Shown: positions 897 through 15,234 of the stretch, one piece after another
Layout: the number at the start of each line of letters is the position of its first letter
Position numbering within the stretch: position 1 is the stretch's first letter
Origin: a virus
Reading direction: 5' to 3' (one strand)
Virus record (IMG/VR): IMGVR_UViG_3300030104_000497
Location: 1-22,073 of that record
Length of the DNA stretch: 22,073 bases
The notes under the pieces: model-generated
Told to the model about the DNA's origin: nothing
The model's input: the letters and a program-made list of their open reading frames with translations, nothing else
Database searches by the model: none
Made by a program: the position numbers and the translations under genes

Positions 897-1325
897 ATGA
901 CACTTGTAAAAGCTAGAGCCGCTTTTGAAAAAGCAATTACTGACGCAGTAACGGATATTGATCCGACTGTCAAAATGATTTATGACAATATTGCTTATAC
1001 AACTCCTGGTAAAACAGTTAAATACATCATTTTAGGCGTTAATTTTGGTCAAGCAACGATGCAAAACCAAGGTGCTTCTAGTGATTATTATTCAGGTTTT
1101 GTTCAATGCAATGTTTATGTTCCAAAGAACAAAGGGACATCAGTATTAGCTGCTATTAGTGAGTCAGTCATTGATGGTATGACCTCTGTTAATGCTTCTG
1201 ACTATGTTGATACTTATAGTTGTAAACCAAAAGTAAGGGATGTTGTAGGGCCAGGAATATTTGATACTGAAAACGATTCACATTGTATGGCTGTAATAAC
1301 CTGCCAATTTTCTGCAAACGCTTAG
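897..1325 (+). CDS. Tail terminator protein (lambda U-like, DUF4128-type)
   Basis: The 142-residue product starts with an amphipathic helix (residues 1-27), followed by short beta strands, a YYSGFVQCNVYVPKNKG segment near residues 63-79, and a second helix, LAAISESVIDGM. This helix-sheet-helix layout and size match tail terminators of the gpU/DUF4128 type (lambda U is 131 residues), which cap the tail tube at its final length and bind the connector. It lies just after the Z-like gene, exactly where U sits in lambda. A weak AAGG ribosome site lies about 10 bases before the ATG. A small tail-tube protein is the main alternative, because no separate tube gene follows, but the motif pattern favours the terminator. 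Confidence 0.65.
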   Translation: MTLVKARAAFEKAITDAVTDIDPTVKMIYDNIAYTTPGKTVKYIILGVNFGQATMQNQGASSDYYSGFVQCNVYVPKNKGTSVLAAISESVIDGMTSVNASDYVDTYSCKPKVRDVVGPGIFDTENDSHCMAVITCQFSANA

Positions 1326-1356: not shown

Positions 1357-1710
1357 ATGGTTAAGGCCATTGAACTTCTCCGCAACAAATTTGGAGTTAG
1401 TCAGTTATATCAACATGACGTTGTTAAAGATGGTGAAACTGTCTTAACTGTATATTGGAATCCATTAACAATTGCAGAAAGAGAATCAATTCAGAAAAAA
1501 GCAGGAACAAATGATGCTAATGATTTTGCATTAGCTTTAATGATTCAAAAGGCTTTAGATAAAGATAGTAAAAGGTTATTTCAAGATGGTGATAAAGCTG
1601 CTTTAAGACGGGAAATTGAAGCTGCTGTTTTACAAGAAATACAGTTGGCAATGCTTAATTCTGGTACGGATAAGGAGGTGGAAGAAGTTCAGGCTGACTT
1701 GAAAAGCTAA
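1357..1710 (+). CDS. Tail assembly chaperone, G-like part
   Basis: This is a 117-residue, mostly helical, charged protein. An N-terminal strand region (GETVLTVYWNPLTIAERESI) leads into helices, ending ..EVEEVQADLKS. This is the usual form of the lambda G-type chaperone that coats the tape-measure protein before tail tube assembly. It lies directly before a T-like frame and the tape measure, as in lambda. The ATG has no clear ribosome site. Close to the 3' end lie an internal Shine-Dalgarno sequence and an A-run just before the stop, which suggests that a fraction of ribosomes change frame to make the longer G-T protein. The assignment rests on gene order, length and the paired T frame; primary sequence conservation in this family is low. 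Confidence 0.75.
   Translation: MVKAIELLRNKFGVSQLYQHDVVKDGETVLTVYWNPLTIAERESIQKKAGTNDANDFALALMIQKALDKDSKRLFQDGDKAALRREIEAAVLQEIQLAMLNSGTDKEVEEVQADLKS
1671..1680 (+). promoter_or_regulatory. Internal perfect Shine-Dalgarno sequence near the end of the G-like gene
   Basis: TAAGGAGGTG is fully complementary to the canonical anti-Shine-Dalgarno end of bacterial 16S rRNA (CACCTCCTTA). It lies inside coding sequence, 21 bases before the AAAA run at 1702-1705, with no well-placed start codon for a new gene after it. Internal Shine-Dalgarno sequences are known to pause ribosomes and stimulate frameshifting (dnaX, prfB). The spacing here is longer than in those cases, so a frameshift role is inference. 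Confidence 0.5.
1699..1710 (+). other. Candidate +1 (or -2) programmed frameshift site
   Basis: In the G frame the codons are TTG AAA AGC TAA. The AAA at 1702-1704 is followed by another A, so a lysine tRNA can move forward one base and pair perfectly again at 1703-1705. The next codon is then GCT at 1706, in the T frame. The T frame has a TGA at 1700-1702, so the shift cannot be upstream of this point, and the G-frame TAA at 1708 sets the downstream limit. No AAAAAAG-type -1 heptamer is present, and -1 leads to the wrong frame. Confidence 0.5.
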
Positions 1711-1897
1711 TAAGCTTTGGTATTTTATGTTTTCTCTAGCTAAAGAGTTAGGGATGACGGTATCTCAGTTGTCAAATGATTTAACGATGGAAGAGTTGAT
1801 GGGATGGTCAGCTTATTTTGCGTTAAAGAATGAAGAAGATGAACGAGAAAAAGATAAAGTTCAAAAAGGTGCTGCTAGTCGGGTTCAAACAAGGTAA
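1706..1897 (+). CDS. Tail assembly chaperone T-like extension, expressed as G-T fusion
   Basis: The frame is open from 1703 to a TAA at 1895-1897. It encodes LWYFMFSLAKELGMTV and later MEELMGWSAYFALKNEEDE. A short helix with LAKELG followed by a MEELxGWxAYF motif is typical of the T domain that binds the tape measure. If reached by a +1 shift at 1702-1705, the fusion protein would be about 179 residues (116 from G plus 63). An ATG at 1727 inside this frame could give a separate 56-residue protein, but it has no ribosome site, so I favour the fusion. It is easily missed in annotation because the frame is short and has no good start. Confidence 0.7.
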   Translation, partial: ANKLWYFMFSLAKELGMTVSQLSNDLTMEELMGWSAYFALKNEEDEREKDKVQKGAASRVQTR

Positions 1898-1928: not shown

Positions 1929-4364
1929 GTGGCTGCTGACTATACCCGAGTTATAGTTTTTAAAGTAGAAGATCAGGCAATAAAACGTGCCACTGATCGT
2001 ATTACTCGTAGCTTAGAAGGTATTGAAAAAACTTTAGGACGTATTGAACAGAAAGGATTTGGAAAAATAGCGAAAGAGGCTGATATGGCGGCTAAATCAA
2101 TAGATAAATTAAGTAAAAGTGCAAGAGGATGGAAAGGTTTAGCAAATCAACTTACTACGACTAAAGGTGGTGTAAGGACTATGGGCGTGGGGGTGCTGGG
2201 AGCAGGTATGGGTCTTAATTGGATGAAGAATCAAATTGGTGGAATAAAAAGTGCAGTTGCTAGTTTAAATCCATTTAACAAAGCAACTGAAGTAGCGGCA
2301 GCAAAGACAGGAGCCTTAAGCGCAGGTTTAGCAAAATTATCAGCAGTTGCTTCTGGTCATCCTGTTCAAGTTGCAGCAATGGCTGTTGCTTATATGGCTT
2401 TTGGAGATCAACTTTTAAACGTAACAAAAAAAGGAATCTTTGGATTATTAGGAGGATTAGGAAAAATAGGTCAAGGAGCAACAAATTCAGCAGCTTTAGC
2501 TATTGGTAAATATAAAAATTTAGAAACTCAATTTGAATTAACTACTGCTGCTGCTGCGAGATTAAATGCTCAAATTCAAAGTCCTAGAGGGCGAATTGGG
2601 CCGAAAAACAGAGCCTTTGGTGTTAGGGAGCAAGGAACATCAATAGAAGAATCAGTAAGGATGAGGAATAGAGCTATAAACCAAAGGGCTGCTGAACATA
2701 GAGAAGCAAAAATGATTGCAGAGGGAAATGCTCCTATTTCCAGAGCAAGCAAACGAGCAATTAGATTAGACGCTGAATTTAAGAATTTACCAACTGTAAA
2801 AGCAGTCAGACAACTTCATGCTATTGAGAAGAAGAGGTTACTTATACATCAGAGAAATCTTAGAGCAACTGAAAAATTAACAATGATGGCAGAGGCCACA
2901 GGTATGCCTGGCAGTACAGGGTTTACGGCTGCTCAGTATGGGCCTCAACCTGCTCCTTTAAATAGGATGCAAAGGTTCGGAATTGGAAAGGGAGCGAATC
3001 CAAAAGGCATGTTTGCTTCTCCTGGTGGAATAGGAGGAAGAGGTAAAGGAGCATTACAAAGTGGAATGATTGGTGGAGGTTTCCCCTTATTGTTTGGTCA
3101 AAGCCCTGCTGCTGCTGTTGCTGGTGGAATTGGTGGTGCTTTGGGTGGTGCGTTAAGCCCTGGATTTGGATTTGCTGGTTCAATTGTTGCAACTGCTGCT
3201 GCACAAAAAATAGGAGAAATTGTTGCATTTAGAAAATCAATTAAAGAGTTAAATGCAGATATGCAAAGTATGGGCTTTAACGCTGGATTTAGTGCAAAAG
3301 AGATAACAAGTCTAGGTAAGTCATTAGGAATAACAAAAGAAGAAGCTGTTCAAGTTGCAGAAGAATTTAAACGATTTGGAAAGTCTGGAGGTTTATTTGC
3401 TAAAGCTTTTGGAGGAGATTTTGCAAAATTCTCGGCAGTAGCACAAGCTGATGAGATTAGTACAGCGATGCAAGCAATAAAAACTTTGAATAAAGATATG
3501 ACCTTAGAAGAAGAACTAAGATTAACTCTTGCATTAAGAAGGAAAGGTGTTGAATCTACTATTAATGAATTAATAGAAGATACTTTAGAAAAACAAAAAA
3601 AAGCGACTATTTCAGGTCATCAAAAAGATTCTGGAACGACAAGAGTTCGTCCTGCTGTAAAACGAAGACAAGCAACCGAAATCAAAGAAATAGATGAAGG
3701 CAATATTAAAACTATTGAAGAGTTGACAAAAATTAGAGATCTTTATAGTGAGATAAGAATAGCGGCAGAAGAAAATTCTTATTCTGTTGTTAAAGCTGTT
3801 GAAGATATAAATACAGAATTAAGAAAATTAAATAGTACACAATATCAAGTTGTTGAATTATCTAAATCAATTGGTTCATCGTTTAGTGAATCATTTAAAG
3901 GAATAATTCAAGGAACAATGAGTGTTCAAGATGCGTTTAGAAACATGTTTAGTCGTATTGCAGATCATTTCTTAGATATGGCAGCACAAATTGCTGCGGC
4001 TCAGTTACAGAAAGGAATATTGCAAATGTTTATGCCATCAATAGGGAGTCAAGTAGGAAACGATTTAGCGGGCCATTTTGCTAAGCTTCCTAAGAAAGCA
4101 GCAGGAGGCCCAGTTTCAGGAGGATCACCTTACATCGTTGGAGAGAAAGGCCCAGAATTATTCGTTCCAGGTTCTAGCGGTAATATCGTTCCAAATCATG
4201 CAATGGGAGGAGCAAATATTGTAGTTAACGTAGATGCTTCTGGTTCGTCAGTTCAAGGCGATGCAGGGCAAGCTGAACAACTTGGAAGTATGCTGGCAGC
4301 AGCAGTTCAAGCTGAACTTGTTAATCAGCAACGACCTGGAGGACTCTTAGCAGGTACACGTTAA
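1929..4364 (+). CDS. Tail tape measure protein (lambda H-like)
   Basis: This is the longest gene of the tail core, 811 residues. It begins with YTRVIVFKVEDQAIKRATDR and a long charged helical region. Glycine/alanine-rich hydrophobic stretches follow around residues 80-105, 150-185 and 380-435 (AAAVAGGIGGALGGAL), then more helix, then a C-terminal tail with AAGGPVSGGSPYIVGEKGPE, a motif seen at the end of many tape measures. It sets tail length and is ejected into the host envelope. At about 1.5 A per residue it predicts a tail near 120 nm (inference). The GTG start at 1929 is the first codon possible after an in-frame TAG at 1920; the AAAGGAG sequence abuts it, so the ribosome spacing is unusually short. 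Confidence 0.93.
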   Translation: MAADYTRVIVFKVEDQAIKRATDRITRSLEGIEKTLGRIEQKGFGKIAKEADMAAKSIDKLSKSARGWKGLANQLTTTKGGVRTMGVGVLGAGMGLNWMKNQIGGIKSAVASLNPFNKATEVAAAKTGALSAGLAKLSAVASGHPVQVAAMAVAYMAFGDQLLNVTKKGIFGLLGGLGKIGQGATNSAALAIGKYKNLETQFELTTAAAARLNAQIQSPRGRIGPKNRAFGVREQGTSIEESVRMRNRAINQRAAEHREAKMIAEGNAPISRASKRAIRLDAEFKNLPTVKAVRQLHAIEKKRLLIHQRNLRATEKLTMMAEATGMPGSTGFTAAQYGPQPAPLNRMQRFGIGKGANPKGMFASPGGIGGRGKGALQSGMIGGGFPLLFGQSPAAAVAGGIGGALGGALSPGFGFAGSIVATAAAQKIGEIVAFRKSIKELNADMQSMGFNAGFSAKEITSLGKSLGITKEEAVQVAEEFKRFGKSGGLFAKAFGGDFAKFSAVAQADEISTAMQAIKTLNKDMTLEEELRLTLALRRKGVESTINELIEDTLEKQKKATISGHQKDSGTTRVRPAVKRRQATEIKEIDEGNIKTIEELTKIRDLYSEIRIAAEENSYSVVKAVEDINTELRKLNSTQYQVVELSKSIGSSFSESFKGIIQGTMSVQDAFRNMFSRIADHFLDMAAQIAAAQLQKGILQMFMPSIGSQVGNDLAGHFAKLPKKAAGGPVSGGSPYIVGEKGPELFVPGSSGNIVPNHAMGGANIVVNVDASGSSVQGDAGQAEQLGSMLAAAVQAELVNQQRPGGLLAGTR

Positions 4365-13098: not shown

Positions 13099-15234
13099 AT
13101 GGCTAACACAATTAAGTTAAAAAGGGGAACGAGTACTCCATCAACGAGTGACATAGATAGTGGCGAAGTTGCGATAGATACCTCGGCTAAGAAGCTATAT
13201 ATAAATGATTCTGGAACGGTTAAAGAGATTGGTGGTGGTGGTGGTGGAGTTAGTTCAGACGCTCAAGGAAACACCGTTGGAGGAACTAATGCAGGTGATA
13301 GTTTTACTGGTACGGATGCAGAATCTAATACTTTATTCGGTAAAGATGCTGGCACAGCAATAACTACAGGCGATAGACATACGGCAGTAGGTTATCAAGC
13401 TTTAGCTACTTTTACTACAGGAGGTGATTGCACGGCTATAGGATACCAAGCCTTATATGACTGCACTACTGGAATTAATAACGTATGTGTCGGAAGGGGA
13501 GCAGGTGAAAATATTACTACTGCTTCTGCTAATACATTTATAGGTGTAAATGCGGGAGCTGGATATACAACTTTTGGAGATTGCACAGCCGTAGGTTTTC
13601 AAGTGATGTCATCTGCTACAGGTGATGCAAACTATGCTTTTGGTAGACAAGCTTTACAACAAAGTACTGTAGGACAAAACTGTGCTTTTGGTCGTTGGAG
13701 TTTACAGAACGTATCTACAGGGACTAAAAATGCTGGATTTGGGAATTACACATTAGCGACCAGTACTACAGGAAGTGAAAATACAGCCGTTGGATATGAG
13801 TCGATGAGATCCAGTACCACTGGTACGAAAAATACGTGTATAGGATCTGACTCTGGATATTTCTTGACAACAGGAAGTAACAATATTGCGGTGGGTTATC
13901 AAGCAATCTATAGCACACATACTGGAAGTAATAATATTGTTATTGGATATGAAGGTACTCCTAGTTCAAGTAGTGTAAGCAACGAAATAACTCTTGGTAA
14001 TACATCTACTGATAAGTTCAGAATCCCTGGTATTAACTTTACGGTTAAAGATACTACTGCTACTGAAGACTACGTCTTAACTGTTGATGCAAACGGCGAA
14101 GCAGGTTGGGAGGCAGTAGCAGCAGGAGTTAGTTCTGACTCTAATTACAATACAGTAGGAGGAACTGATGCAGGTGGTAATTTTAATTCAGGTGCAGTAA
14201 GAAATACATTATTTGGTAAGTCGGCTGGTTATCAAATAACAAGTGGAGACGATAATTCAATTTTTGGTTACGAGGCTGGATATTCACTTACTGGCGGTAA
14301 TTATGAAAACACTTTTATTGGAAAGGGAGCTGGTTATGCTTGTACTGGCAATTTAAACACATTTGTTGGAAATTTAGCTGGATATAATTGTAAAGCAAAA
14401 TCATATAATGTAGGAGTTGGAAGAGATGCTTTAAAAGGTGATTCCACATCTGGGTCAGGAGAATATAATACTGCTATTGGTTATAGAGCATTAAAGGATA
14501 ATTCAGCAGATAACAATACAGCAGTAGGATCATTTGCACTCTATTCCAACACTACTGGTGGTTCAAATATAGCTGTAGGTTATTTAGCTGGTGAAGACTT
14601 AACTACTGGTTCAGGTCATGTACTAATAGGTACTTCTGTAGGTAAATCAATAACAGTTGCAGATGGTAATACCTATGTAGGTCAAGAATCAGGTATGGAT
14701 AATACCTCTGGTAGTTCAAATACTGGTATTGGTAAAATTGCTCTTAAAGGCATAACATCTGGTGCTGGTAATACAGGTATTGGTTATAGAACTGGTGATC
14801 CACTCAGAATTGGTTCAAATAATACTTATCTAGGTAGTAACGCAGGTCTAGTAAATTATAGTGGAAGTAATAATACATGTATTGGTTATGAAGCTGGTAC
14901 ATCATCAAATAGTGTCAGCAACGAAATAACTTTAGGTAATACCTCTGTTACCAAGTTCAGAATACCAGGACTTAACTTCGTTGTTAAAGACTCTACAGCT
15001 ACTGATAACTACGTTCTAACAGTAGACGCTAATGGTGAAGCAGGTTGGGAAGAAGCTGCTGGTGGCGGTGCTACAGGTGGTGGTAGCGATGCTGTCTTCT
15101 TTGAAAATGGACAGTCAGTTACTAGCGACTATACTATAACTAACAACACTAACGCAGGTTCATTTGGACCTATCACTGTAAATTCTGGAGTAACAGTAAC
15201 TGTTGGCTCTGGTGAAAACTGGACGGTAATTTAA
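13099..15234 (+). CDS. Large repetitive adhesin: Mtd-like anchor plus duplicated YadA-head-like repeats
   Basis: The 711-residue protein opens with MANTIKLKRGTSTPSTSDID, similar to the upstream adhesin's anchor, then a run of glycines. The rest is two large blocks (residues about 50-343 and 344-655). Each starts GVSSD, holds 13 or 14 copies of an N-T-x-(I/V)-G-x-x-A-(G/L) unit about 20-22 residues apart, and ends with NEITLGNTS, FRIPG and VLTVDANGEAGWE. The unit resembles the head repeat of trimeric autotransporters such as YadA, which forms a left-handed beta roll. The final 55 residues (ENGQSVTSDYTITNNTNAG) differ and look like a beta tip. A host-binding spike is the likely function. No ribosome site is obvious. 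Confidence 0.75.
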   Translation: MANTIKLKRGTSTPSTSDIDSGEVAIDTSAKKLYINDSGTVKEIGGGGGGVSSDAQGNTVGGTNAGDSFTGTDAESNTLFGKDAGTAITTGDRHTAVGYQALATFTTGGDCTAIGYQALYDCTTGINNVCVGRGAGENITTASANTFIGVNAGAGYTTFGDCTAVGFQVMSSATGDANYAFGRQALQQSTVGQNCAFGRWSLQNVSTGTKNAGFGNYTLATSTTGSENTAVGYESMRSSTTGTKNTCIGSDSGYFLTTGSNNIAVGYQAIYSTHTGSNNIVIGYEGTPSSSSVSNEITLGNTSTDKFRIPGINFTVKDTTATEDYVLTVDANGEAGWEAVAAGVSSDSNYNTVGGTDAGGNFNSGAVRNTLFGKSAGYQITSGDDNSIFGYEAGYSLTGGNYENTFIGKGAGYACTGNLNTFVGNLAGYNCKAKSYNVGVGRDALKGDSTSGSGEYNTAIGYRALKDNSADNNTAVGSFALYSNTTGGSNIAVGYLAGEDLTTGSGHVLIGTSVGKSITVADGNTYVGQESGMDNTSGSSNTGIGKIALKGITSGAGNTGIGYRTGDPLRIGSNNTYLGSNAGLVNYSGSNNTCIGYEAGTSSNSVSNEITLGNTSVTKFRIPGLNFVVKDSTATDNYVLTVDANGEAGWEEAAGGGATGGGSDAVFFENGQSVTSDYTITNNTNAGSFGPITVNSGVTVTVGSGENWTVI
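13246..14124 (+). repeat. Adhesin block, copy 1 (13 repeat units)
   Basis: Codons 50-342 of the large adhesin gene. It runs from the GVSSD start to the GEAGWEAVAA end and contains 13 NTxIGxxA-type units, such as HTAVGYQAL, CTAIGYQAL, NTAVGYESM and NIAVGYQAI. The end segment has SNEITLGNTSTDKFRIPG. It is a direct tandem counterpart of copy 2, similar in both protein and DNA. Confidence 0.7.
14125..15066 (+). repeat. Adhesin block, copy 2 (14 repeat units)
   Basis: Codons about 343-656 of the same gene. It opens GVSSDSNYNTVGGTDAGG and ends GEAGWEEAAGG, with 14 units such as NTLFGKSAG, NSIFGYEAG, NTAIGYRAL and NTCIGYEAG. The offset from copy 1 is 293 codons at the start and 313 at the end, so copy 2 is longer by 20 codons, about one repeat unit. 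Confidence 0.7.

Follow-up and report, generated by a model that had tools for sequence, protein, structure and literature searches.

Xu, Hendrix and Duda reportedly described in 2004 a conserved frameshift in tail chaperone genes, with G/GT of phage lambda. The locus presented here is of this known kind: as in lambda, the gene precedes that of the tape measure protein and encodes a chaperone together with a frameshift extension, which would be reached by a shift near the end of G. However, lambda relies on a -1 slip at a heptamer of the X XXY YYZ type, whereas our locus carries its extension in the +1 frame at an AAA AGY site. Tail chaperone frameshifts of +1, -1 and -2 were already noted in a 2016 review (PMC5009743), which mentions a -2 shift in Mu and a predicted +1 shift in haloarchaeal HSTV-2. 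Both share with our locus an extension in the frame that is reached by +1 or -2, but Mu uses -2 and HSTV-2 is a single archaeal case. Hence, the direction, which a preliminary description of this DNA had called unusual for a lambda-type tail, is unusual indeed, but it has precedent in tailed phages (PMC5009743).

Several other systems share single elements with the locus. In prfB (RF2), the P-site tRNA also slips by +1 downstream of a Shine-Dalgarno (SD) sequence, but the site is CUU UGA, the slip involves competition with the release factor and the SD is spaced by 3 nt, as compared to AAA AGY, a sense codon in the A-site and 17-23 nt in the group of our locus. Likewise, dnaX combines an internal SD with an A-rich site, but it shifts by -1 at A AAA AAG, has a shorter spacing and employs a downstream hairpin. 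A +1 frameshift in a phage tail gene, in which a rare codon is followed by a common one as in our case, is provided by SPP1 gp17.1/17.1*, but here the tail tube protein is extended at CCC UAA, while the chaperone of SPP1 is predicted to shift by -1 (PMC6316719). Finally, cyanophage KBS-S-2A and its relatives possess G and T genes homologous to ours, but with T in the -1 frame, the site A AAA AAC, strong downstream structure and no SD excess. In the open-access literature, we came across no tail chaperone for which an AAA AGY site or an SD at 17-23 nt has been described.

The locus is located near the start of a viral sequence of 22,073 nt (positions 1 to 22,073 of IMG/VR record IMGVR_UViG_3300030104_000497, one strand), the whole of which is designated the window. 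Its tail module is lambda-like, with analogues of M, L, K, I and J beyond the tape measure gene. A weak match to a tail completion protein (228-884) is followed on the + strand by a tail terminator (897..1325; PHROG 179, E 1.9e-11), by G encoding the 0-frame product of 117 aa (1357..1710), by the T extension of 63 aa plus stop (1706..1897) and by the tape measure gene (1929..4364; PHROG 1538, E 1.1e-15). As in lambda-type G/GT modules, G is overlapped by T in another frame and lies directly before the tape measure gene. Both profiles and fold identify G as a chaperone: it matches PHROGs 344 (E 4.5e-5), 16513 and 20784, the latter being the best match, and the top PDB hit of its AlphaFold model (pLDDT 72.6) is 2OB9, the tail chaperone of HK97 (Foldseek probability 1.00, E 0.01). 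T matches the tail-protein PHROGs 26456 and 337. A separate major tail tube gene is not evident between terminator and G (897-1357), unlike in cyanophage S-2L; the tube gene of the window may sit elsewhere, or the terminator call at 897-1325 may be wrong. Further downstream (13099-15234), a protein of 711 aa with many short glycine-rich repeats (FGxxAG / TAxGYxA type) is encoded, which is probably a fibre or decoration protein.

The window sequence confirmed the arrangement of the frames given in the preliminary description. G is read in frame 1 up to the TAA at 1708-1710, while the T frame is frame 2, which contains a TGA at 1700..1702 (+ strand), is open from 1703 and stops at 1895-1897; it is reached from G by +1 or -2. 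Since the TGA bounds the shift upstream and the TAA downstream, it is confined to AAAAGC (1702-1707), which includes the AAAA run at 1702-1705. The candidate slip site is thus AAA AGC (1702..1707, + strand), with Lys AAA in the P-site and Ser AGC in the A-site. Also confirmed was the ten-base SD complement 21 bases upstream: TAAGGAGGTG is present at 1671..1680 (+ strand), where it encodes (D)-K-E-V, 21 nt before the AAA or 23 nt when counted from the last G of GGAGG.

Our preferred interpretation, to which we assign a probability of roughly 0.85 on the grounds of sequence comparison, is that the locus represents a G/GT tail chaperone of a siphovirus-like phage, with a programmed +1 frameshift at AAA AGC whose rate is probably raised by the SD. 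The majority of ribosomes would terminate at the TAA at 1708 and yield G. In a minority, tRNA-Lys would occupy the P-site on AAA 1702-1704 while the scarce AGC, presumably decoded slowly, is in the A-site. The tRNA would then re-pair one base forward, from AAA 1702-1704 to AAA 1703-1705, Ala would be decoded on GCU (GCN) and translation would continue as GT, a fusion of about 179 aa with the predicted junction ..QADLK-ANKLWYF... Shifting is probably enhanced by the SD, located 17-23 nt upstream, through pairing with 16S rRNA behind the ribosome, and in the clade with 23-nt spacing the SD may effectively be brought closer by a hairpin formed within the spacer.

To assess the locus by comparison, 464 G-homolog loci were collected from viral-contig scans and annotated phages, some of them being the same contig fetched twice. 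The T frame was assigned by tblastn homology without use of junction or motif, which placed T at +1 in 423 loci and at -1 in 33; the remaining loci received no assignment. Among the -1 loci are those of the isolates KBS-S-2A, HTVC202P, HTVC026P, S-H1, S-2L and MED4-184. The +1 phages are uncultured, aquatic and, as a group, widespread, and a fraction of their ribosomes seems to advance by one base at the site; no related prophages were found in a scan of bacterial and archaeal genomes.

All 423 +1 loci carry an in-frame AAA AGY at most 16 codons from the G stop, a motif with only 3 occurrences among the 17,830 codon positions elsewhere in G. The preceding codon is always Leu or Met (ATG, TTA, TTG, CTC, CTA, CTG), the A-site codon is AGY throughout, and a TGA or TAA bounds the shift upstream in 411 loci but is absent from 12 (CTC AAA) loci. 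The slip site looks to be under selection. The comparison of relatives proposed in the preliminary description as a check of the A-run came out in its favor, and a shift into the +1 frame at the AAAA is strongly supported and very likely, given that all relatives with T in that frame carry the site. The heptamer of the -1 type does not account for these loci, whereas most of the 33 -1 loci end in A AAA AAC, the classical site. In nine loci (L306 and others), AAA AGC occurs twice at the end of G, at a distance of nine bases, and either copy could be the shift site.

Within the family of the window, the A-site codon is AGC in 51 of 51 cases, as opposed to a background of 0.12 among Ser codons. 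AGC is rare in the window (7.7 per 1000) and GCT is common (45 per 1000). This usage fits the rule employed by PRFect, which models forward sites as 'four in a row' with a rare A0 codon followed by a common A1 codon (PMC10274946). The codon following AGY is variable among the +1 loci, and 71 of the 146 distinct loci of this class have 1-7 sense codons separating AGY from the G stop, so that the shift is independent of a stop directly after AGY. A slip assisted by the stop codon was ruled out on the basis of this variability.

By itself, the SD is not special in the window: two matches with at most one mismatch compare with 1.3 expected, and three other coding stretches pair about equally well with the anti-SD. 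The idea that it is remarkable in the window alone was therefore rejected, and its significance lies in its conservation among relatives. A role as initiator of an internal start was also discarded, as no start codon is present at normal distance. In the window clade, the SD codons are AAG in 46 of 47 sequences (background 0.27) and GAG in 46 of 47 (background 0.21), while the adjoining wobble positions vary. We compared the anti-SD duplex energy with synonymous shuffles keeping protein and codon usage. In the window family, pairing is much stronger at -22, with -11.95 versus -4.6 in the shuffles, and in the sister clade (the L060 family) near -17, with about -9.0 versus -2.9; the z values of this test treat related sequences as independent, and single-sequence p values are modest, many loci exceeding 0.05. 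In some relatives with a changed amino acid, an SD is nevertheless retained as AAGGGGG or AGGGAGG. The same argument, retention despite protein change, has been used for prfB (PMC5009743). Moreover, the distance from the SD to the slip site is held constant, at 23 nt in the window clade and at 17 nt in the sister clade. Selection on the SD beyond protein and codon usage is thus well supported in these two clades, in line with the conservation check proposed at the outset.

In contrast, no SD excess over synonymous shuffles was detectable in the KBS-like +1 families (L191, L197, L201 and L446) or in the -1 relatives. As this second +1 group uses AAA AGC without SD excess, the SD is an accessory rather than a core element. 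As to the stimulation of the shift proposed in the preliminary description, the SD is under selection in two clades and is a candidate stimulator, but the mechanism does not require it. The spacing had correctly been noted as longer than in the known cases: SD stimulators are spaced by 3 nt for +1 and by 9-14 nt for -1 sites (PMC5009743), and the 17-23 nt of the window and sister clades, a spacing without published example among slips of either direction, fits neither. It casts doubt on the notion that stimulation by an SD is restricted to distances of 3 or 9-14 nt.

These properties bear on the strongest competing explanation, namely a true shift at AAA AGC with an SD that does not stimulate it and owes its conservation to something else, for instance pausing, ribosome retention for the tape measure gene, G output or codon preference. 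We consider this less probable than stimulation, but a serious contender. The spacing outside the published windows, the +1 families lacking SD excess and the equally strong SD-like stretches elsewhere in the coding regions of the window speak for it, but it does not readily account for the constant spacing of SD and slip site (23 or 17 nt), for the persistence of the SD through amino-acid changes or for the lack of SD excess in the -1 relatives.

RNA structure was inspected on both sides of the slip site. In the -1 family of the KBS type, the downstream region folds strongly (mean z -2.9 over 60 nt and -4.9 over 100 nt), whereas in the large +1 families its initial 60 nt fold weakly or hardly at all (z +0.3 to -1.4); over 100 nt, some folding is present in the L053 and L201 families. 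A downstream stimulator in the window clade was dismissed, as folding is weak (mean z -0.8 and -0.4). In vitro, upstream duplexes stimulate +1 shifting and downstream structure, including a pseudoknot, attenuates it, and a hairpin upstream by the E-site can mimic the SD duplex and stimulate +1 (PMC6321510). The distribution of downstream structure between -1 relatives and large +1 families agrees with these data. Upstream, folding of the stretch that separates SD and slip site amounts to -2.87 in the window family as compared to -1.84 in synonymous shuffles, and the wobble positions -16 and -7 are Watson-Crick paired in 36 of 51 sequences versus 18.8 expected, although this covariation is not significant after phylogenetic correction, with 9 changes per position and few independent pairs. 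These data tentatively point to a small hairpin at 1685..1700 (+ strand) in the window clade. If real, it would place the SD a few bases from the slip site, close to the distance in prfB.

The same net frame would result from a slip by -2, as documented for Mu (PMC5009743), which would give the junction LKSANK, and an SD at a distance should exert a backward pull. Nevertheless, we regard this as improbable: tRNA-Lys would have to re-pair poorly from AAA to TGA, TAA or TCA and tRNA-Ser from AGC to AAA, whereas the +1 slip from AAA to AAA is perfect. The variable codon after AGY also speaks against it, and the -2 slip was rejected for want of an acceptable re-pairing. We therefore infer +1 as the direction.

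A separate T protein starting at the ATG at 1727, which the preliminary description had set against a frameshift, is very improbable. This ATG is present in the window and 1727-1897 is an ORF, but in the stretch from the slip site to the conserved LAxEL core of T, 64 of 104 distinct loci lack an ATG and 56 of 104 lack ATG, GTG and TTG alike. Since the T frame and its protein sequence are moreover conserved in relatives beginning at the slip site, we regard the ATG at 1727 as incidental; nor is it preceded by an SD at start distance. A separately started T was thus excluded by the relatives. The least probable explanation, transcriptional slippage on the A-run yielding a shifted mRNA, can draw on the presence of the run (4 A in the window, 5 in TTA AAA AGY relatives), but four to five A are too short for transcriptional slippage, and AGY after the run would need no conservation.

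The occurrence of both directions provides a large natural +1 set with one invariant motif, AAA AGY, alongside homologous -1 relatives, and thereby makes the evolution of frameshift direction and its determinants testable within one gene. In a tree of G built without the junction, from a short alignment and with some long branches, 5 changes of direction are required, of which two or more fall on well-supported branches. The KBS-like family holds both directions, which requires 2 changes, although a single clade of its -1 members was not rejected (AU p 0.07). On this tree, gain and loss of a direction cannot be told apart. A more far-reaching interpretation combines two claims: that the internal SD stimulates +1 shifting from 17-23 nt, which would add a third working distance, and does so in the 23-nt clade by means of a spacer hairpin bringing it to about the prfB distance, and that a homologous gene has switched direction at least 2 times, with site (A AAA AAC or AAA AGY) and stimulator (downstream structure or upstream SD) changing together. 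In this combined form we consider it rather unlikely.

In the L053 family, Leu is encoded by CTC and GGAGG could pair with the CCTC before AAA, hiding the SD within the mRNA. In the L191 and L197 families, anti-SD pairing 4-10 nt before AAA is weaker than in shuffles, as if SD-like sequence were avoided. Finally, the comparison improves annotation: T extensions in the -1 frame for which no gene is annotated were recovered at L162 (3330-3534), L276 (2480-2681), L164 (3243-3410) and L165 (3246-3413), and belong to the cultured phages KBS-S-2A, MED4-184, HTVC202P and HTVC026P.
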